A stretch of DNA of 64,000 nucleotides from a virus: positions 1 through 64,000 of IMG/VR virus record IMGVR_UViG_3300005537_000022; one strand, given 5' to 3'. Each line of letters opens with the position of its first letter. Positions within the stretch are counted from its first letter, which is position 1. Position numbers and translations under genes: made by a program. The notes under the pieces were generated by a model that saw nothing but the letters and a program-made list of their open reading frames with translations, had not been told where the DNA came from and did no database searches. Positions 48,902 through 61,837 of this stretch are shown one piece after another.

Positions 48902-50404
48902 TTAGCCCACGTTCTGGAGCACGGACATGGCGAGCGGGGCGCGGTTCACGAAGGCGCCGTTGCACCTCAGCTCCGTCTCGCGGCGCGGGCCGCCGCCGGC
49001 CGTGTTCGCGATCCGGGAGGCGGCGTACTCGAACTGCGTCATGTCCCGCAGCGCCCGGTAGGCGAGCACCGAGGAAATGTTGGCCTGCGGGAACGGAACG
49101 CGGTCGCTGCGCGCGATGATCGTGCCCGGGGGCACCGACACGTGGACCTCGATCGGCACGGGAATGCCGCCCGCGGGGGCGTTGAGCACGTGCCCGACCC
49201 GGCCGCCGGCCACGACGTCGACACGGCCGTTCTTGTCGGTGTTGAGGAACGTCGTCGCCGAGTTGCTGCCCAGGATCAGGTTGGCTATCTCCTGCGCTTG
49301 GGCCGCGTTCACCATGATCGCGGTCGGGGAGACCTTGATCGACTGCCACAGCGCCAGGAACAGGTACTGCTCGATCTCGGTGACGGTGCCGCCGGTCAGG
49401 GTGAGGGCGGCCCCGTTGAGGCTCGTGTTGATCGACGGGTTAGCAGTGCCGGTGCCGGTGGTGACCCACTGGCCGGTGGCGTTGTAGTCGCCGGACAGGG
49501 TGGCGAGCAGGCCGTCCATGTCCGCGGCGTTCGCCGACCCGTTGTCGGCGCCGCTGTTGAAGGTCGGGACCGTGTTCGCGATGCCCTTCCAGCCGGTCGA
49601 CAGGTCCGGGACGGTGATGGCGGACGGGAGCGCCTGATTCGAGGTGATGACCTTGGTCATCGTGACCGCGTTGGTGGTCGTGGTCGTGTAGTAGTACCAG
49701 GTCGTGCCGTTGCTGGACTGGAACCAGTCGTAGCAGACCGCGCCGCGTACGCTGGCCACCGAGGCGGTGATCGAGTTCGTCGTCCCGGACCCGAACGTGG
49801 TGCTGCTGCTGTTGCCCTGGCTGTTGCCCGAGCCGTAGTAGTACCCGCTGCCAGTCCGGGCCGCAACGCCGACGTACACCTGGACGGCGCCGATGGTGCC
49901 GCCTGTGCCGACCTGGGTGAGCGACGGCGCCGCCGGCTGGACCAGCGCGAACGACTGCGCGCCGATGAACTTGCGGTCCTTCGCGATCAGCATCTGGTTG
50001 ACCAGGTTGAACGTCGCGACCGCGAAGGGGTCCGCGTATCCCAGGGCGAGATCGTAGGAGTCCTGGGTGACGATGGTGTCGAACGACAGCACCTTGTATG
50101 CGGCCTGGAAGTCCTGCTCGCTGAAGACCAGCTCGGAGCCGGCGTAGTCGAACGGGGTGGCCGGGTCGGGCTGGGCGGCGTTGGTGTTGAGGATCGCCCG
50201 CCAGACGGCGTACTTGTTTCCGTCCTGGCTCTTCTCCGTCGGGATCATGTCGAAGAACGGGGTGACGACCGGGACCTGGGAGACCAGGCCGGACAGGTCG
50301 TAGGACGTGATTCCGGTGGCAGTGGTGATGCCGGTGGTCTGCGCCTTGGCGATATCCGCCATGGCCGCGAGGGTCTCCTCGGAGATCTCCTGCTGCGTGG
50401 GCAC
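48902..50404 (-). CDS. major capsid protein, 500 aa
   Basis: Large protein in the place of the capsid gene after protease and scaffold. It contains SYDLSGLVSQVPVVTPFFDM, AAYKVLSFDTIVTQDSYDLA and a C-terminal MTQFEYAASRIANTAGG, fitting an HK97-type fold. A Gly/Ser/Thr-rich middle with YYYTTTTT could be a surface insertion domain. GTG 50404 with GGAGG 4 bases before. A hairpin-rich leader precedes it. Confidence 0.8.
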   Translation of the reverse strand: MPTQQEISEETLAAMADIAKAQTTGITTATGITSYDLSGLVSQVPVVTPFFDMIPTEKSQDGNKYAVWRAILNTNAAQPDPATPFDYAGSELVFSEQDFQAAYKVLSFDTIVTQDSYDLALGYADPFAVATFNLVNQMLIAKDRKFIGAQSFALVQPAAPSLTQVGTGGTIGAVQVYVGVAARTGSGYYYGSGNSQGNSSSTTFGSGTTNSITASVASVRGAVCYDWFQSSNGTTWYYYTTTTTNAVTMTKVITSNQALPSAITVPDLSTGWKGIANTVPTFNSGADNGSANAADMDGLLATLSGDYNATGQWVTTGTGTANPSINTSLNGAALTLTGGTVTEIEQYLFLALWQSIKVSPTAIMVNAAQAQEIANLILGSNSATTFLNTDKNGRVDVVAGGRVGHVLNAPAGGIPVPIEVHVSVPPGTIIARSDRVPFPQANISSVLAYRALRDMTQFEYAASRIANTAGGGPRRETELRCNGAFVNRAPLAMSVLQNVG

Positions 50405-50416
50405 GATGCCTCCTTC

Positions 50417-50459
50417 CGGGGGGCATGCGAAAGCCCCCGGAGCGGTGCTCACGGGGGCT
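50417..50459 (-). promoter_or_regulatory. alternative hairpins in the capsid gene leader
   Basis: AGCCCCCG (50432-50439) can pair with CGGGGGCT (50452-50459), giving a terminator-like hairpin followed on the minus strand by TTTC. The same GCCCCCGG (50433-50440) can instead pair with CCGGGGGGC (50417-50425) close to the ribosome site. The two are mutually exclusive, as in attenuators. Confidence 0.45.
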
Positions 50460-50481: not shown

Positions 50482-52500
50482 CTACCGGCGGGCGCCGTGG
50501 ATGGCCTCAAGGTGCGTGATGGCCGACCGGTTCAGCTCGGCCGCGATCCGGTTGGCCTCGGCGGGGTCCGCCGTGTACATGCGCTGCTTCATCTCCCTGG
50601 CCTTGGCCACGTCGATGAGGGGCGCCGCCCCGTGGTCCTGTCCGCGAAGCTGGCTCGCCGGGGGGACCTGCCCGTTCGTGAATACCTTCGGCGCGGCGGG
50701 CGTCTCCTCCACCTTCGCGATGCGGGCCTCCAGCTCCCCGACCTTCGCGAGCGCCCCGGCGACGTCGGCCTGCTTGGCCACGTCCTGTGCCGGGGGCATC
50801 GCGCCGAGCGCTGCTGCCACTGCCTTCGCGACGGCGCTCTCGAGCGCGCCTTCCGTCACCGTGATCACGCCTGTGCCCGCGGCCTTCCCGACCGCGTCGG
50901 CGGGGGTTCCCGCGTCGGCCGGGGGCTGCGGGGTCATGTCGCCGGCATCCGGGGCGGCGTCCTGCGCCCCGTCGCCGTCCGTGCCGTCCGCGGCGGGCTT
51001 GCCGCCCGCGCCGGTGACCGGCTGGATCGCGTCGGGGTCGACGATGCCGATGAGGTCGCCGTCCTGGTCGAACACGGCCTGCATCGCCTTCTTCTCCCCG
51101 TCGCCGTCGGCCTTCGCGACGCGGAGCGCGATCGACTCCGTGTCGGTGACGCCGACGAGGCGCCGGCCCTGGTCGTAGACGAGGGTGAGCGCGGCCTTGA
51201 CGACCTGGCGCCCGGGGACGTCGCCGGGGAGCGCCGCGGCGGAGCCGGCCGCCACGGGCTCGCCCGGGGCGGCGTCGCGGGCCTGCCCGGCGGGGGATGC
51301 GGTCTCCTTGGCGACGTCCGCCGCCTTGGTCTCGGGCACGGTGCCCTCCTTCTCCTTGGCGACCGGCTCTGCGGCCTGGGGTGCGGACGGGAGGCTCGCG
51401 AGCACGTCGCCGAGGGCCTGCGCGGCGTCCCGGATCTTCGTCTCGTTGCTGGCGGACAGGACGCGGCCGGACTTGGCGACGGCCGCCAGTCCCTCGGCGG
51501 CGTCAAGGTGCGCGGTATCGAACCCGGCGAGCGCCTTGCACATCTCCGCCATCTCCGCGCCGATCTCCGCCTCGGCCTGCTCCCCGGCGGCGAACACCGC
51601 GAGGTTCCCGATGGCGTAGTCGATGGCGCAGGCGGCGTCCTCAAGGCTGAACGCGTTCTCCGCGTCGGACGGGTCGGCGGAGGCGGCTTCGAGCATTTCC
51701 CGCTCGGCGAGCATGCACAGGGCGTTCTTCGCGCGGGCGAGGATGCCCGCCCACTTCTGGGCGGTCGCCGCGTCGATCGCCTCCCACGCCGGGGAACCGG
51801 GGTCGGTCGGGTCGCCCGGGACGTCCATCTCGTCATCGGGGGCGGCGAGAGGAGTCGTCGGGTCCATGCCGTCGATGCCCTCGTCGAGGACGACGGCGTC
51901 CCCGGCCATGTCCATTACGTCCTTGCTCACCGCGTACGGCACGCCGGCCTCCTTGGAAACCTTCTTCTCGCCGAACCTCCGCTGGGCGGCTTCGACCTTG
52001 GGCTTCGCCTTGTCGCCGAACTTCGCGCCCTGGGCGATGCGGGCGGCGGCGTTGTCCGCGTGGGCCTTGTCGTGGATGGCGAAGTGCCGCAGCGAGCGCG
52101 GGGTCGTCTTGCCCTCGGCGTCCTTCTTGCCGCCCGGTTCGATGTAGGCGAATGCCGAGTCGGGCAAGTCGTTGAGGCTCTTCGTGCTCATGTCGGCCTT
52201 GGCGACGGAACCGGCTGGGTCCGCCTCGCGTACGCTCGCGGCGTGGATGAACGCGGCCATCGCCGCCGGGGAGCCCTTGATGACGATCCCGTTCGGCAAG
52301 GTCGTTTCCCCCGCCTCGGCTACGGCTGGCACGGGGGCCTCCTCGATGAGGTCGCGGACGAAATCAGGCTCGAGAAGACCGCCGCCTTCCGTGCCCTTCA
52401 TGACGAGCCACTCATCGACGCCGTGCGCCGGAGCGCTCACCAGGTCGGCGCGCGGCAGGTCGGCGTCGAACAGGCCCGTGAACTCCTCGTCGTCATCCAT
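50482..52500 (-). CDS. scaffold-type protein with DUF6582-like domain, 672 aa
   Basis: Residues about 105-175 (LPDSAFAYIEPGGKKDAEG ... GKTTPRSLRHFAIHDKAHAD) match the DUF6582 pattern. The rest is acidic, helical and low complexity, with two related units VYDQGRRLVGVTDTE and VFDQDGDLIGIVDPD. Between protease and capsid genes, it is probably the scaffold removed during maturation. Confidence 0.65.
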   Translation of the reverse strand: MDDDEEFTGLFDADLPRADLVSAPAHGVDEWLVMKGTEGGGLLEPDFVRDLIEEAPVPAVAEAGETTLPNGIVIKGSPAAMAAFIHAASVREADPAGSVAKADMSTKSLNDLPDSAFAYIEPGGKKDAEGKTTPRSLRHFAIHDKAHADNAAARIAQGAKFGDKAKPKVEAAQRRFGEKKVSKEAGVPYAVSKDVMDMAGDAVVLDEGIDGMDPTTPLAAPDDEMDVPGDPTDPGSPAWEAIDAATAQKWAGILARAKNALCMLAEREMLEAASADPSDAENAFSLEDAACAIDYAIGNLAVFAAGEQAEAEIGAEMAEMCKALAGFDTAHLDAAEGLAAVAKSGRVLSASNETKIRDAAQALGDVLASLPSAPQAAEPVAKEKEGTVPETKAADVAKETASPAGQARDAAPGEPVAAGSAAALPGDVPGRQVVKAALTLVYDQGRRLVGVTDTESIALRVAKADGDGEKKAMQAVFDQDGDLIGIVDPDAIQPVTGAGGKPAADGTDGDGAQDAAPDAGDMTPQPPADAGTPADAVGKAAGTGVITVTEGALESAVAKAVAAALGAMPPAQDVAKQADVAGALAKVGELEARIAKVEETPAAPKVFTNGQVPPASQLRGQDHGAAPLIDVAKAREMKQRMYTADPAEANRIAAELNRSAITHLEAIHGARR

Positions 52501-52519: not shown

Positions 52520-53038
52520 TCATGCCGTCTCGATCCGGCGGCGGGCCGCCCGGCCCTGCGGGGAGAAGCCGTTCACGCGCCGGGATTTCGCCAGGCTCCA
52601 CGCGTACTCGTCGCAGATCCCGCCGATCAGCCATGCCATGCCGGACTTGATCACCAGGCCGCTGGGCTGCTCCCAGTCCGGCCCCCGGTAGATGTAGTTC
52701 TCGGTGACCGTCATGTGGCCGAGGGTGCCGTCCAGGTGGGCGATGCCGATCTGGCCGCCGCCGGGAAGGAAACTCCAGCAGGCTTTCTCAAGCTCGTCGG
52801 GGGTGAAGGTGTCCCGGCCGCCGTCCTGGCCCTTGCGGATGCGCGGGTCGGGGCCCGCCTGGTAGGCCAGCCCGAGGAGGAAGCGCTTCTCGTCGCCGGA
52901 CTTGGCCACGGGAAGCGCCTGCCGGACCACGCCCCGCCGTACCGGGGCCGGGAGCTGGCGGGCGGCGTCCTCGGCGAGGATCTTTCGGATCTCCGCCCGC
53001 AGCGTGTCCGGGTCGATGTTCACCAGCACGGCCACCAC
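52520..53038 (-). CDS. XkdF-like capsid maturation protease, 172 aa
   Basis: YIYRGPDWEQPSGLVIKSGM, WLIGGICDEYAWSLAKSRRV and NGFSPQGRA follow the order in XkdF-family putative phage serine proteases, with His in GIAHLDGTLGH. It lies upstream of the scaffold and capsid genes. GTG starts are ambiguous over the first 5 codons. Confidence 0.7.
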   Translation of the reverse strand: MVAVLVNIDPDTLRAEIRKILAEDAARQLPAPVRRGVVRQALPVAKSGDEKRFLLGLAYQAGPDPRIRKGQDGGRDTFTPDELEKACWSFLPGGGQIGIAHLDGTLGHMTVTENYIYRGPDWEQPSGLVIKSGMAWLIGGICDEYAWSLAKSRRVNGFSPQGRAARRRIETA

Positions 53039-54901: not shown

Positions 54902-55234
54902 ATGACCCCTTCCGAGTACGTCCACCCCGAGTCCGGCCGCCTCTACCGGGAGGGCGACCCCGCGCACCATTTCGCCCTGCTCGCCGCAGGGCTCGCAAGG
55001 GAATGCGAGACATTCCTCCGCCACTACAACGAGCGGCTCAAGAACGCGGACTACCTGGCCCAGTACCATGAATGGCCGTCCGATCCCGGCAGCATCGCAC
55101 GGTCCATGGCTCACACCATCGAGGCGCTCGACAAGGCGTACACGGCCATCACGGTCGACCGGGACCTGCACCTGTTCGGGCTCGGGAGGCAGGACGAGGA
55201 GTGGCACCGCAAGTACGGGAGACTTGAGGAGTGA
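54902..55234 (+). CDS. rightward moron-type protein, 110 aa
   Basis: MTPSEYVHPESGRLYREGDP then a helical region (CETFLRHYNERLKNADYLAQ). No known motif. First of three coupled rightward genes between the MuF gene and the leftward gene at 54431. Confidence 0.6.
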   Translation: MTPSEYVHPESGRLYREGDPAHHFALLAAGLARECETFLRHYNERLKNADYLAQYHEWPSDPGSIARSMAHTIEALDKAYTAITVDRDLHLFGLGRQDEEWHRKYGRLEE

Positions 55235-55551
55235 CTGATCCCCAGGCGGCGGGCGTGTACGGGCCGCCACGCCGGCCAGAGCTCAACCGGCGGTTCCCCG
55301 CCTGCGCCTGGATCGCCCGCAGGCTCCTGGCCGAGGTGTACGGCTGCCAGCCCGGGGACCTGATTCCCGGCGAAGACGAGCTGCTCGCGCACGCCCGCAC
55401 GGTCATCGCGGCCGAGAAGGAAGCGGAGCGGACGCGACGCGGCCTTTTCAGGGTTGTCGGCGGCAAAGCGCAGTACGCGGTCGCCATGGTGCAGGAAATC
55501 GGCGGCATCTTCGACCGGGCCGATGCCGACGAAAAGGGCAGCGGGGAGTGA
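55231..55551 (+). CDS. hypothetical protein, 106 aa
   Basis: GVYGPPRRPELNRRFPACAW then a long basic-acidic helix. GTG overlaps the previous stop by 4 bases. No motif recognised. Confidence 0.55.
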   Translation: MTDPQAAGVYGPPRRPELNRRFPACAWIARRLLAEVYGCQPGDLIPGEDELLAHARTVIAAEKEAERTRRGLFRVVGGKAQYAVAMVQEIGGIFDRADADEKGSGE

Positions 55552-55555
55552 GCAC

Positions 55556-55804
55556 GTGAACGAGGCCGCCGGCGAGACGCCGGGCGGCGATGAGACCGTC
55601 TTCGGCGTCCCTCTGCTGGCCCTGGTGCGCAGCTTCCGGAGCGACCCGCTCGCCGCGAAGGCGTTCCTCGCCGCCGAGGGCTACCTGCTGGCCGTCGAGC
55701 GGCTGAAGACGGACCCCGGCGTGACCCTGGAGGAGGCCGCCGCGCTCAAGGCCGGCATCCACGGCACCGCCGGGGACCCTGGGCACGCGCCGCATCCGGG
55801 ATAA
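55556..55804 (+). CDS. small hypothetical protein, 82 aa
   Basis: GTG 55556 with GGGGAG ahead. VFGVPLLALVRSFRSDPLAA and AEGYLLAVERLKTDPGVTLE suggest an all-helical protein. Its end lies over the promoter of the next gene. Function unknown. Confidence 0.55.
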   Translation: MNEAAGETPGGDETVFGVPLLALVRSFRSDPLAAKAFLAAEGYLLAVERLKTDPGVTLEEAAALKAGIHGTAGDPGHAPHPG

Positions 55805-55805
55805 T
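55800..55805 (+). promoter_or_regulatory. -10 hexamer GATAAT, near-leaderless promoter
   Basis: GATAAT, five of six bases of the consensus, with a 7-base spacer before ATG 55813. RNA would start at 55812, one base before the ATG. It overlaps the stop of the previous gene. This is the clearest of the six. Confidence 0.6.
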
Positions 55806-55812
55806 CGCAGGC

Positions 55813-56313
55813 ATGACCGACAGTCCCGCAGAGATCCCCGCCGCCTTCAGCGGGCGGGTGAACGGCTCCCTGACTTCCGCGCAGCAGACCGCCGAGAACA
55901 CGGCCCGGATCGCCGCCCTGGTCGCCCAGATCCCCCAGGCGATCGGGATGATGCTCGCCCAGGTGGCCCGCGCCATACCCTCGGGCCACCTGTGCGCCAC
56001 GTGCCTGGCGAACAGGATCGCCTGGGAAGTGGCGAACCGTTCCCACGTCGAGGCGGCTATCGCCGGCGCGCGGGCGGCGCACGGGCTCGCTGAAGGGGAC
56101 CCGGTGCCGCCGGGGTTCGACCCGGCCCCGTTCCTGCCGGCGGACCTGCGGCCCGGCGCGGTGCGCGGCATGCCGCCGCTCACGGCCGCCATCACCACGG
56201 TCGCCGGGACCGACACCTGCTCCGAGCACATTCCCGGCCGGGCCGGGGGCCGGACGCTGCTGGTCGCCTCCGGGGCGCTGTCCCCGTCGGGGATGGCGCG
56301 CTTCGGCACCTAG
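55813..56313 (+). CDS. rightward moron-type protein, 166 aa
   Basis: Helical N-terminus (AENTARIAALVAQIPQAIGM), CATC metal-type pair near residue 61, and Pro/Gly-rich C-terminal half. Its end overlaps the MuF stop by 4 bases. Function unknown; the promoter position suggests leaderless, independent expression. Confidence 0.6.
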   Translation: MTDSPAEIPAAFSGRVNGSLTSAQQTAENTARIAALVAQIPQAIGMMLAQVARAIPSGHLCATCLANRIAWEVANRSHVEAAIAGARAAHGLAEGDPVPPGFDPAPFLPADLRPGAVRGMPPLTAAITTVAGTDTCSEHIPGRAGGRTLLVASGALSPSGMARFGT

Positions 56314-57110
56314 GCCGGGACTATCGCGCACCGGCAGCCGCCCGGGTGGGCCGGCGGGCACAGGTCGCCCGAAGGCCACTCGATCCCGGCGGGACGGGGA
56401 TCGGCGGCGGCATTGTCCAGGCACGCCTTGCAGGTCCGGGAGTCCTGTACGGCGGCCCACCGGAGCAGTCCCGCGCCGTTCGCCTGGTACCACTCCAGCG
56501 CGGCCAGGCCGCCCGCGACCGTGATCTGGGTGACGGCCAGCCCCTCGGCGTAAGCCCCGTCCGCCACGGCGGTCTCCAGCATGCCCGCGAGCTCGGACGC
56601 GGCCGTGTCCGGATCCCAGCCGGCGAGCACGCGGGAGACTACGTTCAGGTAGCCGTCCCCGATCGCCTGGGCGATGCCCGGCCCTTCCCCGCCGCCGGAG
56701 CCGCCGGCGAGCGAGGCGAGCAGCGCGGCCAGGCCGAGCGCCTCCGCCAGCCGCCTCGCCTTCGCCGTGTCTCCCGGGGTCCAGCCGGCCGTGTCCGCGT
56801 CGGCGCTGCCCGCCATCGCGGCCTGCGCCGACGTCCCGCCGATCGCCAGGGCGTCGGCGGCGATCCGCTCGGCCAGGTCCCCGGCCGGGACCGTGATCCC
56901 CTGCGACCGCAGCCAGGCGAGAGCCGCCGCGTTCCGCTCCCGCTTGCCGGGCGCGCTGCCGTCCTGATCCGGGTGGCCGGCCGTGTACGCGGAGGCGATG
57001 GCGTCCAGTTTCCCGCGCGAGAGCGCCTGCCGCGCCGCGGCGGTGACCTTCGGGGCCCACCAGGCGGCGGCGGCCAGGTCTAGCTTCCAGCCCGGCCAGT
57101 CACCAGGGCT
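56310..57110 (-). CDS. MuF-like head morphogenesis domain, expressed by -1 frameshift from the portal
   Basis: The C-terminal part has WAAVQDSRTCKACLDNAA, WPSGDLCPPAHPGGCRC, the MuF signature. MuF proteins bind the portal inside the head. The coding signal begins at the portal stop (GDWPGWKLDLAAAAWWAPKV), but the frame has no ATG, GTG or TTG there; the only upstream ATG (57236) lies 157 bases inside the Nudix region. The frame is -1 to the portal frame and a C CCA AAA heptamer (57116-57110) joins them. The result would be a portal-Nudix-MuF fusion. Confidence 0.75.
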   Translation of the reverse strand, partial: SPGDWPGWKLDLAAAAWWAPKVTAAARQALSRGKLDAIASAYTAGHPDQDGSAPGKRERNAAALAWLRSQGITVPAGDLAERIAADALAIGGTSAQAAMAGSADADTAGWTPGDTAKARRLAEALGLAALLASLAGGSGGGEGPGIAQAIGDGYLNVVSRVLAGWDPDTAASELAGMLETAVADGAYAEGLAVTQITVAGGLAALEWYQANGAGLLRWAAVQDSRTCKACLDNAAADPRPAGIEWPSGDLCPPAHPGGCRCAIVPA

Positions 57111-59443
57111 TTTGGGACGGGCATCGCCGCCTTCACCGCGACGGTCTCTTCCGGCTCGCAGCCCAGCAGCGGCAGCACGTCGCCGAGGGAGGCGGCCAGC
57201 TCTTCCCGCAGCATCGGGTTGCCGGGCAGGTCGCACGGGTCAGCCCACATGATCGCCTCGACGGCGTCGCCGTCCGGGTCGTCCGGGTTCGGCACCACGG
57301 CACCGCCGCGGACGGGGACCGCGGCCTCGGACTCGGTCGTCCACACGATGCCCCGGTAGATGCCGTCCCCGGCCGTCCACTCGCCCGTCACCGAGCCGGG
57401 AGGGGGAACGGCCCCGGTTTCCTCTGCCCATTCGCGCCATGCGGCGCGCAGCGGGGACTCATCGCCCTCGACGTGCCCGCCGGGGAACTCGATCTTGCCT
57501 CCGGCCGGGTCGCCGGGGTCGAGCGCCCGCTGGATCATCAGGACGCGGCCGGTGTCGGCGGCGAGGACCGCGAGGCCCGCGACCGCGACCTCGCCCGCGG
57601 CCTTGCGGACCGCGAGCCTTCCGTCGTCGTTGAGGTTGTGCGCCCAGACCCCTGGCACCGAGCGGAACTCGAAGTCCCGCCACTCGCCATCCTTGCGGCG
57701 GGCCTTCGCGAACCGGCGGAATGCCCGCATCTCCTTGAGGACGGCCGTGCTGCGGACCGCATCCGCGTCCTCGTCATCGTCGTCATCGCCGGCGAGGTCG
57801 TAGGAGTAGATCCCCGTCTCCGCGGTGATCCCCGCGGAGGCGTTCCCGGCCGGGGCCGCGCCCTCGCCTTCCTTGGCGACGGGCTGGCCGGGCCCGGCCT
57901 CGTCGGCCGGCGTCATCTTCGGCTGCGGGGGCGGCGCCGGTGGCATCGCGGACTCGCCGAACTCCCGCTCGGCCAGCGACATGACCTTGATCGGCGGGTT
58001 CGGCAGGACGCCCTCCGTGCCGCCGAAGACCGTCCGCGGCAGCTCCGCGCCTTCCTCGGGCAGCCCGTCCGCCGGGTCGACGTCGCCCGCGACGGCCAGC
58101 AGCGAGGAAACCGGGATGGGCCCGGCTCTCTCCGTGTAGATGAACCGGGGGATCGGCCGGGCGTCGGTCAGCCCGTAGCGCATCTCGCGGATCTCGGACG
58201 GGCCGATGACGCCCATCTTCATGTACTTGTCGTCGGCGTTCGCCTGGTCTACGCGGTCGTCCTGCTCCTCGCCGAGGTCGAACGCGAACTTGAGCGGAAG
58301 CTGCATGTCGTCTTGCAGGAAAGCGGTCAGGATGTCCTGCACGTGGTGGGCGAGCGGGAGGTCGCCGACGCGGTGCTGCACGTCGGCCTGCGACTCGCCG
58401 CTGCTGCGGTTCACGCTCTCGGTGAACCCGAGGTCGCTGGGGACCACGGAGTAGGCGGCGCACGTCTTGCGCATCAGGAACAAGCTGAACTTGTCGTCGA
58501 AGTCCTTCTCGCTGCTCCACGCGAACGACGAGCCGCCCGGGATCCACCGGATCTGGTGCTTGCCCTCCTGGTTGCCCAGCATGAAGCCGTCCCAGTATTC
58601 CTGGAACTGCTCGATCTGCTCCGGGGTCCAGCTTTCGGGGGCGCCCGCGAAGGCGGCGGGCAGGTTCCCGGCGGTGAACCGCTGGAGGAAGTAGAGCTGG
58701 AACCGGATGTCGGTGTTGGCGTTGAGGAGGATGTCCTCCAGCGGCGCCCGGCCGTAAGCCGAGTCGTCCTGCGGGTCGTACGGCTCGTAGATCAGGTCGT
58801 CGCGGGTCAGCCAGTCCCAGGCCAGCCCGTTGACGTACTGGACGTAGGCGGGGGCGGGAGAGTCCGGGGGGTCGCCCCAGTAGTCGAGCAGCGGCGCGAT
58901 CGTGGTGCCGTCGACGACCCTCAGGCCGACGCACCGGCCGGCCCGGTTCCGCATCCGGGCCAGGGTGCCGGCGTCGTAGGACAGTACGCCCCTCATCCAC
59001 TTGGCCAGCCACGGCTTGAACAGGGTCTTGCGGTCCGGCCGCTTCAGCGCGCGCATCCCGGCGGCGATGTCATCGGCGACGTCGCCGTCGTGGCCGTCGG
59101 CGGCGACGAGCTTCCAGTCCAGGCTGCGGAGGCTGGCGATCCTGTGGCGGATGCAGAGCTGGGCTACGTCGTAGGAGCCGATCAGGCCCTTGAGCGTCTC
59201 GAAGCTGACCCGTTCGTGGGTGCGCGGCCGGGTGGCCACGTTGTACTGCGGGACGTACTCCTTGGACCGCGGGGTGCGGGAGAACCCGTCGTACGGCGCG
59301 ATCGGCTCGCCTGGCGAGAACGGGGACGACGGGCCCATCTGGGCGCGTTCCTCGGCTGCCTCGATCGCGGGCGGGACGGAGCTGCCGAAGACCTTCGCGA
59401 CAGGCACCGGCGCGGCGGCGGCGGCGCGGGAACGGACGCTCAT
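57080..59443 (-). CDS. portal protein fused to a C-terminal Nudix hydrolase domain, 787 aa
   Basis: Residues about 70-470 are the portal (RHRIASLRSLDWKLVAADGH, DDLIYEPYDPQDDSAYGRAP, LEDILLNANTDIRFQLYFLQ, PSDLGFTESVNRSSGESQAD). An acidic linker (DDDDDEDAD) follows. Residues about 615-760 form a Nudix domain; the box GHVEGDESPLRAAWREWAEE-TGA (656-678) keeps every key residue of Gx5Ex7REUxEExGU, so it should be active. Nudix enzymes cut nucleoside diphosphates linked to other groups. The portal places it in the capsid interior or neck. Fusion is read through without frame breaks. Confidence 0.88.
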   Translation of the reverse strand: MSVRSRAAAAAPVPVAKVFGSSVPPAIEAAEERAQMGPSSPFSPGEPIAPYDGFSRTPRSKEYVPQYNVATRPRTHERVSFETLKGLIGSYDVAQLCIRHRIASLRSLDWKLVAADGHDGDVADDIAAGMRALKRPDRKTLFKPWLAKWMRGVLSYDAGTLARMRNRAGRCVGLRVVDGTTIAPLLDYWGDPPDSPAPAYVQYVNGLAWDWLTRDDLIYEPYDPQDDSAYGRAPLEDILLNANTDIRFQLYFLQRFTAGNLPAAFAGAPESWTPEQIEQFQEYWDGFMLGNQEGKHQIRWIPGGSSFAWSSEKDFDDKFSLFLMRKTCAAYSVVPSDLGFTESVNRSSGESQADVQHRVGDLPLAHHVQDILTAFLQDDMQLPLKFAFDLGEEQDDRVDQANADDKYMKMGVIGPSEIREMRYGLTDARPIPRFIYTERAGPIPVSSLLAVAGDVDPADGLPEEGAELPRTVFGGTEGVLPNPPIKVMSLAEREFGESAMPPAPPPQPKMTPADEAGPGQPVAKEGEGAAPAGNASAGITAETGIYSYDLAGDDDDDEDADAVRSTAVLKEMRAFRRFAKARRKDGEWRDFEFRSVPGVWAHNLNDDGRLAVRKAAGEVAVAGLAVLAADTGRVLMIQRALDPGDPAGGKIEFPGGHVEGDESPLRAAWREWAEETGAVPPPGSVTGEWTAGDGIYRGIVWTTESEAAVPVRGGAVVPNPDDPDGDAVEAIMWADPCDLPGNPMLREELAASLGDVLPLLGCEPEETVAVKAAMPVPKALVTGRAGS
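57110..57116 (-). other. -1 slippery heptamer C CCA AAA
   Basis: On the minus strand the portal frame reads GTC CCA AAA GCC; the last C plus CCAAAA makes X XXY YYZ in the correct phase. Slipping back one base continues as AGC CCT GGT GAC TGG in the MuF frame. A GAAGGCGG sequence about 12-19 bases upstream could act as an internal stimulator. Confidence 0.7.
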
Positions 59444-59498
59444 CCGGCCGACCCCCCGCGTGCCGCGTGGCGGCGGTAGGCGTTGCCGTTCGCGCCCG

Positions 59499-59759
59499 TC
59501 ACCCTGGCGGAGGCGTCCAGCCGAGCGAGACCAGCGCGTCCCGTGTCGCGTCGGTGACCTGCACCCGCGCGCCGGGGCCGAGCAGGAGCTTCAGCGCCCC
59601 CTGGTCGACCAGGCCGAGGGTGACCACGGGCACCCCGTCAGAGGCCGCGGCGACCGACCAGGAGGAGACGGACGAGAGGGGGTGGCCGTTGACCTTGACG
59701 GCGCCCGTGAACGGCCACTGCCCGTCGACCTCGAACACCGGGGGCTGGTCGTCAGCCAA
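59499..59759 (-). CDS. small late protein, 86 aa
   Basis: VFEVDGQWPFTGAVKVNGHP and a C-terminal LLLGPGARVQVTDATRDALV; beta-rich. Located between terminase and portal; overlaps the previous gene by 8 bases. Probably an accessory of the packaging or head genes. Confidence 0.6.
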   Translation of the reverse strand: MADDQPPVFEVDGQWPFTGAVKVNGHPLSSVSSWSVAAASDGVPVVTLGLVDQGALKLLLGPGARVQVTDATRDALVSLGWTPPPG

Positions 59760-60150
59760 GTCGCGCTCCAGTCATGTCGTGGCGGACCATCCCGGTGGCC
59801 GCGTCCCAGGGCGCCCCGTCCCGCGAGATCACCGCAGGCGTCAGCGGCTCCGGGGCGCGGCCGGTCCGCTCGTAGAAGTCCTGCTCGGCCCCGGCCAGCA
59901 GGCCGATGTCGCGCCGTGCCTCGTCCCGCGCGGCGCCCTCGGACGGCTGCGGGAGCCCCGCCGGGCAGATGACCCGGCCGTCGGAAGCCAGGCGGAGCGG
60001 GTAGAACCAGTCCTCCCCGGCCCAGGGCTCAAGCGGGGGCGGCAGGCCGGAGCCGCGGACGACTGCCCAGCGGCAGCCGAACAGGGTAGCGGGACGCTGT
60101 TCGGGGACCGTGCGGGCGAGGGTGACGGGGCCGGGGTCGACGGAGGGCAC
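59752..60150 (-). CDS. hypothetical protein, 132 aa
   Basis: Pro/Gly/Arg-rich start then WAGEDWFYPLRLASDGRVIC and LLAGAEQDFYERTGRAPEPL. Lies directly after the large terminase. No known motif. Confidence 0.55.
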   Translation of the reverse strand: MPSVDPGPVTLARTVPEQRPATLFGCRWAVVRGSGLPPPLEPWAGEDWFYPLRLASDGRVICPAGLPQPSEGAARDEARRDIGLLAGAEQDFYERTGRAPEPLTPAVISRDGAPWDAATGMVRHDMTGARLG

Positions 60151-60172
60151 AGGCGGTCGCCTCCTCGCCTGT

Positions 60173-61837
60173 CTACCGGCCTGTCATGCGCGCCCGCATC
60201 GCCGCGTCCCTCGCCAGCTTCCTCGCGGTCACCGGGTCGGGAGGGACTGGCGGTTCGGGTTCCGGGGCGTCCTCGGGGGCCGGGGCGCGGCGCGGGGACG
60301 GCGCGGGGTTCCCGGCTTCGGCCTCCGCGAGTTCGGCTTTTCTTTTCGCCCAGTTAATCCAGGCTTCAGCACCGCCGCCGACATTCAATAGCCAGTACCT
60401 CAATGCGTCCATGAGGTGGTCGGGGGCGCTGGAGTTCGCATCTTCAGGGTCGCCCCGGGTCGCGTGCGGGAGATTGGATAGTTCCCACCACGTCTTCGGC
60501 AGCGTCCGGAAGAAATGGATCATCGGGCAGGTTTCCCAGCCCATCCCCCGGTGCATCAGGCAGGCAGGGCCTTCGGCGAGGTAGGAGTGGACGCGCTGCC
60601 ACCCCGAGACCCTCGATCCCGGACCCTTGCCCGCAGGCGTCAGGTGGACGCCGTTGTCCGAGTAAATCCGGGAGATCGCCTTGGCATCGCCCCTGGTGGC
60701 AAACATCGCGTCGTCGCCGTACCGCGCCGCGATGTGCTCGGCCTCGCCCTCGGACGCGAGGATGCGCTTCGCCTGCTCCGCTTCGCCGACCTGGGTCTCG
60801 TAGATCTCGCGGTAAGCCCAGCATCTGCCGTCCTCGTCGACCGCGCCCCACAGCACAGCCCACGGTGCCGTGTAGCCCCAGTCAACCGAGCAGTACCGGC
60901 GCCACGAGGCGGGGAGCGTGAACGGGTCGACAGAGTGCCGGTCCCAGCGGAGCTCGGGGAACATCTGCCCGGCGAACTGGCCCCAGTCGCCGTCTCGCAT
61001 CGCCGCGCGACGGGCCGGGTCGGGGATGGCGTCCAGGCGGCGGAAGTACGCCTCGTCCAGGTGGGGGTTGTCGGTGGCCTTCGCGGGGATGAACCGCACC
61101 GTGAGGCCGTGGTCGTCAGTGACGACCTTGCGCCCGTGCTCCGTCGGGTCGATGTACCGGGCGCGGACCTCGCCGTGACCGGGGCCGCCCGGGTTGGACG
61201 TCGACCGGATGCCGATCACCGGGACGCCGTGCGCCGACCGGAGCCGCTCAAGCGCGATCACGTCAACGATCCCCGGGGCGAGCAGCGTGCGCTCGTCGAC
61301 GAACACGAGCTGGTACGCGCCGCCCTGGCGCCGGGACGCGTCGTCGAGCGTCTCCATGTAGCGCAGCCGGATCAGCGAACGGTTCGGGAAGGCGACTTCC
61401 TTCTCCGTCTTGTTCAGCCTGCCGCCGAGGGCCTCGCCCCAAGCGAACCGCTGGAACTCCGGGTAGATCGACTCCGCGAGCTCGTCATAGGAGCGGCGCA
61501 GGATCAGGACGCGGATTCCGGGGTACCGGGCACAGGCCCGCAGTGCCTCGGCGACGATCGCGGCCGTCTTGCCGCCGCCCGCCGATCCGCCGTACAGGAC
61601 GTCGTCCTCGGTCGCCGCATGGAACTGCTCTTGCGGGCACTGGCCGCAGGGCTCGGGAACAATCGCGTCGCCCCGCTTGCGGGCCGCCTGGCGCGGCAGG
61701 CAGATCGGCTCGTAGCCCAGCACCTTGAAGGCGTCTACATTGCGGAGCCGCTCTTCGTCGGCCGCGCGCTTGCGCTCGCGGAGCTCGGCGAGACGGCGGA
61801 GGGTGTCAGGCGACGCCAGGACGAGGGGTGCCGGCAT
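60173..61837 (-). CDS. terL: terminase large subunit, 554 aa
   Basis: Walker A at residues 83-91 (GGSAGGGKT), Walker B VFVDE at 178-182, and a C-terminal nuclease domain beginning YCSVDWGYTAPW (Asp 319). Together these define the packaging motor and DNA-cleaving subunit. N-terminal Cys pair CGQC at residues 64-67 is an extra. The start overlaps the small subunit by 32 bases. Confidence 0.95.
   Translation of the reverse strand: MPAPLVLASPDTLRRLAELRERKRAADEERLRNVDAFKVLGYEPICLPRQAARKRGDAIVPEPCGQCPQEQFHAATEDDVLYGGSAGGGKTAAIVAEALRACARYPGIRVLILRRSYDELAESIYPEFQRFAWGEALGGRLNKTEKEVAFPNRSLIRLRYMETLDDASRRQGGAYQLVFVDERTLLAPGIVDVIALERLRSAHGVPVIGIRSTSNPGGPGHGEVRARYIDPTEHGRKVVTDDHGLTVRFIPAKATDNPHLDEAYFRRLDAIPDPARRAAMRDGDWGQFAGQMFPELRWDRHSVDPFTLPASWRRYCSVDWGYTAPWAVLWGAVDEDGRCWAYREIYETQVGEAEQAKRILASEGEAEHIAARYGDDAMFATRGDAKAISRIYSDNGVHLTPAGKGPGSRVSGWQRVHSYLAEGPACLMHRGMGWETCPMIHFFRTLPKTWWELSNLPHATRGDPEDANSSAPDHLMDALRYWLLNVGGGAEAWINWAKRKAELAEAEAGNPAPSPRRAPAPEDAPEPEPPVPPDPVTARKLARDAAMRARMTGR

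Follow-up and report, generated by a model that had tools for sequence, protein, structure and literature searches.

The window analysed here, a 64,000-nucleotide (nt) stretch of viral DNA corresponding to positions 1 to 64,000 of IMG/VR record IMGVR_UViG_3300005537_000022 (98,382 bases in total), contains a gene that encodes a phage portal protein and a Nudix hydrolase domain in one chain. We consider it probable, on the grounds of sequence comparison, that a programmed -1 frameshift at a CCCAAAA heptamer close to the 3' end of this gene joins a MuF-like protein to the portal–Nudix chain in a fraction of copies. A first-pass annotation had described the portal–Nudix frame as single and uninterrupted, and this was borne out: it is an open reading frame (ORF) of 787 amino acids (aa), which we place on the minus strand, none having been given. 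In the same annotation the stop codon was read as the end of the gene, and the predicted shift into MuF was missed. The plus strand across 57080..59443 is likewise free of stops; no protein was recognised there by eye. The elements in question are the following.

57080..59443, minus: portal–Nudix gene, zero frame, uninterrupted ORF of 787 aa
57133 to 57127 (57127..57133), minus: Shine-Dalgarno (SD)-like AAGGCGG, 10 nt before the heptamer, from sequence and a family signal
57116..57110, minus: slippery heptamer CCCAAAA in zero-frame phase (X XXY YYZ pattern)
57050..57109, minus: downstream stretch with a predicted RNA fold, weak in the window
56310..57110, minus: MuF-like protein read in the -1 frame for 266 codons past the slip, up to a stop, from PHROGs matches and gene order

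Conservation of the heptamer and its surroundings

In the window the residues V-P-K are encoded by GTC CCA AAA, so that C-CCA-AAA is slippery in the zero frame, and the zero-frame stop follows nine codons past V-P-K. A slip of -1 at this point would give a predicted protein of 1044 aa (778 + 266), which is the size class of relatives that have MuF in frame. Either CCCAAAA or GGGAAAA was found near the junction, in zero-frame phase, in 75 of 94 distinct portal ORFs; these collapse to 70 distinct junctions, 62 with CCCAAAA and 8 with GGGAAAA. Sites were accepted as junctional when their codon lay above 550, except in three half-ORFs of broken frames, and the site in L033 was picked by hand.

Our reasoning for a role in decoding is as follows: (i) all 69 occurrences of CCCAAAA in a set of 97 distinct portal ORFs (292,329 nt) are in slippery phase and, judged by context, at the junction, a MuF start being recognised automatically close to 68 of them and the remaining one (L014) lying in the same K-A-G-G-x-R-P-K context; (ii) in 20 synonymous-codon shuffles of 98 ORFs the in-phase count averaged 0.7, with a maximum of 3; (iii) of the Pro-Lys pairs in 145 distinct portal and major capsid protein (MCP) ORFs, these 69 are encoded as CCA AAA after a C, whereas CCA AAA is used by none of the other 119; and (iv) three ORFs without the MuF core (L029, L054 and L061) are also without the heptamer. 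GGGAAAA is less strictly placed, with nine occurrences in phase and four out of phase in the same 97 ORFs. The change from Pro to Gly that accompanies GGGAAAA suggests that it is the slippery pattern, rather than the amino acid, that is conserved. Loci gathered after the hypothesis had been formed behaved similarly; the heptamer was present in six of six genome loci (L107 to L112, three of which repeat earlier junctions), and CCCAAAA in four of the five junction-spanning viral loci (L134, L138, L139 and L141, with L139 repeating L072). Neither heptamer was found in the C-terminal part of five distant portals (THSA-485A, Polewnik, MMB025, phiYS40 and Jeremy); a sixth, Lalka8, fell below the score limit and was left out of that reading.

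The position of MuF relative to the portal frame differs across the family. In many relatives there is no stop after the Nudix domain and the frame runs on into a MuF-like segment starting with WPGW or similar; in the window the conserved start, WPGWKLDL, is in the -1 frame. MuF is in the -1 frame at 10 of the 70 junctions, where the zero frame stops 7-27 codons past the heptamer, and this is also the arrangement in L134. At the remaining 60 MuF is in frame, and it is the -1 frame that stops, 1-25 codons past the heptamer. Judging from these frames, slipping would give a short and a long isoform in both polarities. We label the downstream protein of the window MuF-like only, on the basis of PHROGs minor-head matches and gene order, as it scored 21.9 bits against MuF PF04233 (E 3.1e-4), under the cut-off of 29.6.

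A dnaX-type layout consists of an SD-like element about 10 nt upstream, a heptamer and a 3' hairpin, and signals of both kinds surround the heptamer at the level of the family. SD-like pairing is strongest in the 9-nt interval starting 15 nt upstream (mean -4.8 vs -1.6 kcal/mol), a peak with a z of -10.4 relative to in-phase sites within these genes. For the 30 nt directly downstream the predicted folding energy averages -13.7 kcal/mol (n=70), compared with -7.5 at other sites in those genes, and an uninterrupted stem of at least 6 bp starting 4-8 nt past the heptamer is found at 25 of 70 junctions and at 265 of 6,759 control sites. A subset of 22 of the 70 junctions, chosen for having a stem, shows compensatory changes, with a covariation score of 0.306 against 0.159 in shuffles, a comparison biased by that choice.

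Several observations weigh against the frameshift. L135 has CCCTTTA in the heptamer's place; L053 and L081 (L022 is the same contig) span the junction with neither heptamer, the MuF-like part of L022/L081 being different from that of other relatives; and L034, which is 29% identical, has AAAAAAA. A further 16 of the 94 ORFs either could not be judged or lack MuF. Among those that could not be judged, the contigs of L030, L031, L073 and L079 end before the junction and that of L059 just before it, and the frame is interrupted in or before the Nudix domain in L012, L023, L076, L083, L106 and the first halves of L020, L086 and L087. The sequences counted are related and are thus not independent events. 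In the window itself both signals are weak: the SD-like site is only within the top 10% of its own gene, and the downstream fold is no better than shuffles (z -0.87), 21% of the gene's own sites being as stable. Frameshifting in the window may thus be of low efficiency, or may rely on a structure that escapes prediction.

We nonetheless favor a model in which the gene would encode the portal of a tailed phage of Actinobacteria. Its C-terminal extension, made up of capsid-like peptide, acidic linker and Nudix cassette, would face the head interior by analogy with known portals. Some ribosomes would slip by -1 at 57116..57110 and read on into the adjoining MuF frame, giving two products that share the portal–Nudix body, one of 787 aa without MuF and one of 1044 aa with it; in relatives with MuF in frame the same slip would yield the short form. 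A portal ring has about twelve subunits. MuF on every subunit would mean about twelve copies, and slipping would restore a lower number in what would then be a mixed ring. Since the Nudix domain is encoded ahead of the slip site, every portal copy in the head would bear it, and once delivered the enzyme may act on nucleotide compounds of the host.

The portal–Nudix chain, its cassette and the linker peptide

That a portal and a Nudix domain share one chain, as first proposed from the sequence, is supported by matches to both in Pfam and PHROGs. The portal match to PF04860 has an E of 4.1e-15 (56.2 bits; cut-off 39.1) and the Nudix match to PF00293 an E of 1.1e-14 (55 bits; cut-off 21.1), with PHROGs giving portal phrog_2662 (E 4.3e-43) and MutT/Nudix phrog_1198 (E 2.9e-11). 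The acidic linker between them was also recovered, its acidic stretch beginning past residue 550. Gene order is typical of a portal, with terminase upstream and MuF-like, protease and major capsid genes downstream.

60173-61837: terminase large subunit, upstream of the portal–Nudix gene
58181..59155, minus: Phage_portal domain PF04860, residues 97-421 (Pfam)
57794..57832, minus: capsid-like linker peptide GITAETGIYSYDL, residues 538-550 (sequence comparison)
57209..57574, minus: Nudix domain PF00293, residues 624-745 (Pfam and domain model)
57410..57478, minus: Nudix box, residues 656-678 (sequence and alignment)
52520..53038, minus: head maturation protease (Peptidase_S78_2)
48902..50452, minus: MCP, aligned with the annotated MCPs of phages Sonali and Mufasa8
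50294-50332, minus: matching peptide GITTATGITSYDL in the MCP

Between the protease and capsid genes lies a 672-aa protein (50482-52500, minus) for which Pfam gives no match and PHROGs only a weak one, of unknown function; it is a candidate scaffold protein. ARAGORN called a tRNA-Asp antisense within the portal gene (58874-58969, plus strand), which is probably a false call.

The Nudix box had been read as catalytically intact, and the alignment agrees. Judged against the Nudix box formula, G656, E662, R670, E671, E674 and E675 are invariant in 50 of 50 rows and G677 is present in 41, the rows (window included) having been picked for a matching Nudix part. A model of the domain has a predicted local distance difference test score (pLDDT) of 88.1 and the Nudix fold, with MutT-type chains as best Foldseek match (E 3.3e-7); by fold it resembles MutT-type and ADP-ribose pyrophosphatase chains about equally. 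Assignment of a substrate from sequence or fold was dropped, as the PDB profile search and Foldseek mix MutT, RppH-like, ADP-ribose pyrophosphatase and NUDT types. PADLOC gave a single Nudix-type match, PDC-S07 (E 1.6e-7). A single-chain model of the full-length protein (mean pLDDT 57.3, predicted template modelling score 0.34) made placement of the Nudix domain relative to the portal crown impossible and was discarded.

The cassette appears in more than one form. A 2H phosphoesterase with both HxT motifs replaces Nudix in six loci (L014, L024, L026, L028, L082 and L093), two of which were tested and matched PF13563 with E values of 3e-9 and 7e-9. This exchange within one slot supports the published idea of portals carrying enzymes towards the host; fusions of 2H to MuF or Portal are also mentioned in PMC9503650. 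Gene 52 of Streptomyces phage Gilgamesh and three Streptomyces plasmid records encode non-portal Nudix proteins about 48-55% identical, and proteins of this type are a possible source of the portal cassette. A small module, CPCGTPVVYDEM-x-GWQHADG, lies between the Nudix or 2H part and the slip site in L012, L015, L016, L028 and L059.

The linker peptide raises the possibility that the Nudix or 2H cassette is freed inside the head, the peptide being a head-protease site and the enzyme a free internal protein. Among six-frame ORFs totalling 2.34 million residues, the pattern GI-x3-TG-[IL]-x2-YDL is confined to portal ORFs (77 of 91 distinct ones) and MCP ORFs (45 of 48), the lone match classed as 'other' being an MCP fragment; this confinement, together with the S78_2 protease encoded nearby, is what release would lead one to expect. 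On the other hand, the conservation extends over about 13 residues, seemingly beyond the needs of a protease site, and the peptide could act as a docking strand comparable to the capsid N-arm. Among the 14 portal ORFs that miss the pattern, several hold degenerate forms, while Sonali and Mufasa8 hold none. We put it at about one in three that the peptide is a protease site shared with the capsid protein, and release of the cassette is accordingly possible but doubtful; the portal peptide may instead dock as the capsid N-arm does. Release would be compatible with the frameshift.

Other readings of the junction

Portal–Nudix and MuF might also be expressed separately, the former ending at its stop and the latter being started by coupled or internal initiation, with the heptamer incidental or part of a ribosome-binding site. 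In keeping with this, CCAAAAGG is purine-rich and could belong to such a site, the window has a GTG in the -1 frame 40 codons upstream, and many relatives have GG or GGTGA right after the heptamer. Five loci (L005, L006, L043, L071 and L072) argue otherwise: a stop closes their -1 frame 2-13 codons ahead of the heptamer, and the frame offers no ATG, GTG or TTG until at least 53 codons past it, so that the conserved MuF start would be reachable only by a shift. Moreover, the exact codon phase of the heptamer is kept even where MuF is in frame and no start is needed, and the SD-like run is missing from relatives in which the heptamer is followed by GCG, GTC or CGG. We regard separate expression as unlikely.

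We find it similarly hard to credit that the gene is a portal–Nudix fusion and nothing more, that is, a vertex enzyme in about twelve copies, injected against host signals, with MuF irrelevant to how the gene is read. The intact Nudix box, the exchange of Nudix and 2H in one slot and the packaging predicted in PMC9503650 would all fit, but such a view gives no account of the heptamer, its phase or the two MuF polarities. Transcriptional slippage or sequencing error as the source of the frame change has next to nothing to recommend it, for broken frames do occur in some metagenome contigs but the run is of merely four A and the same phase and heptamer recur across 70 distinct junctions, isolates and genomes.

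Distribution, precedents and significance

A tblastn search of 50,697 phage records matched 26; matches to both the portal and the Nudix parts were confined to two Arthrobacter phages, Sonali and Mufasa8, each with two records and about 46% identity. Scans of IMG/VR gave 30 and 80 loci, on partly overlapping contigs, and three later scans gave 2, 6 and 16; the portal–Nudix architecture is present in most of the viral contigs found. Bacterial genomes contributed six prophage loci, in a Catenulispora metagenome-assembled genome, Kitasatospora mediocidica and four Streptomyces. The named hosts are thus Actinobacteria. Scans seeded with L003 and L033 revealed no close relative beyond the records already known. 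The assembly error that had been named as grounds for refutation, or a chance misjoin of portal and Nudix, is excluded by the recurrence of the same fusion in Sonali, Mufasa8, six genome contigs and many viral contigs.

Some relatives have interrupted genes. Intein-like insertions interrupt the portals of L028 (about 410 aa, following the equivalent of residue 183) and L032 (about 365 aa, following the equivalent of residue 328); they begin with Cys and end in GN ahead of Thr or Cys. Portal frames in L020, L083, L086, L087 and L106 are interrupted at nearly one Nudix position, after LMLQRA, and in L020, L086 and L087 a second ORF holds the remaining Nudix and the heptamer. In L012, L023 and L076 the Nudix frame stops at a similar NDRV-x-DR-x-GR site, with HNH-like sequence seen by eye next to it in L023. 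Rfam gave no match, introns included, in positions 55000-60500 of the window or in eight loci with interrupted portal frames.

There is precedent for the fusion. Iyer et al. 2022 (PMC9503650) reported Nudix fused to Portal, MuF and a capsid-processing peptidase, as in the window a Nudix enzyme on a head protein, and predicted packaging and injection. The portal–Nudix fusion, thought undescribed in the first-pass annotation, can therefore not be put forward as a discovery, and the idea of packaging and injection raised there was already in print as a prediction; we, too, infer rather than observe the packaging, copy number and substrate of the Nudix domain. The fused Nudix is called T4-NudE-like in that paper; our fold search gave MutT and ADP-ribose pyrophosphatase neighbours. 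Frameshifting is not mentioned in the passages of the paper that were consulted. In phage Pam4, Nudix lies within the capsid maturation protease gene. Gene 3 of Sonali and Mufasa8, annotated 'portal and MuF-like fusion protein' (in one record 'MutT/NUDIX hydrolase'), has the same portal-Nudix-MuF order as the window, with CCCAAAA and a downstream hairpin at the junction. It differs in having MuF in frame, so that a slip would lead to the short form, and in lacking the capsid-like linker peptide. These records carry no frameshift annotation.

There is also precedent for the mechanism in other phage genes. Frameshifts of -1 have been described in capsid genes of phages A2, T3/T7 and Privateer, in SPP1 17.5 and in lambda-type tail chaperones (PMC5009743, PMC7881722, PMC6316719). 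In these cases slipping takes place close to the 3' end of a structural gene and extends the C-terminus in a fraction of copies, as proposed for the window, but the genes concerned are those for capsid, tail and chaperone proteins and not a portal gene to which MuF is added. dnaX yields two products (PMC5009743) and resembles the family members with MuF in frame in that slipping makes the short form, although heptamer and gene are different. As in the window, the MuF gene of SPP1 (gp7) directly follows the portal gene, its product being a portal-bound minor head protein; gp7 is separate, whereas in the window a covalent link between MuF and some of the portal subunits is predicted. Portal-MuF fusions are also described for Microbacterium phages of clusters EA and EB (PMC7302621). 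On MuF copy number, PMC6316719 has the wording 'a few number of copies'. Our literature searches, which took in few subscription papers, turned up no account of a portal-MuF frameshift. The PRFect paper (PMC10885494) includes 'MuF-like' among genes called joined by that tool though not so annotated, and this may be an earlier glimpse of the portal-MuF frameshift. As it stands, the fusion is known and the predicted frameshift at the end of the portal gene appears to be new.

For the family as a whole we see an evenly balanced case for a broader scheme, in which a single -1 frameshift of either polarity sets the fraction of portals bearing MuF in these actinobacterial phages (a Gag-Pol-like arrangement giving a low MuF copy number), the linker peptide either anchors the enzyme arm to the shell or flags it to be set free by the head protease, and the DNA is accompanied on delivery by an enzyme that can be either Nudix or 2H. 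In head assembly, it is difficult to test how only one or a few copies of an internal protein come to be incorporated into a portal ring. If the frameshift is real, present annotations (one portal, or one fusion) overlook a product, and the ratio of MuF to portal would be set genetically and could be tested directly in two cultured phages.

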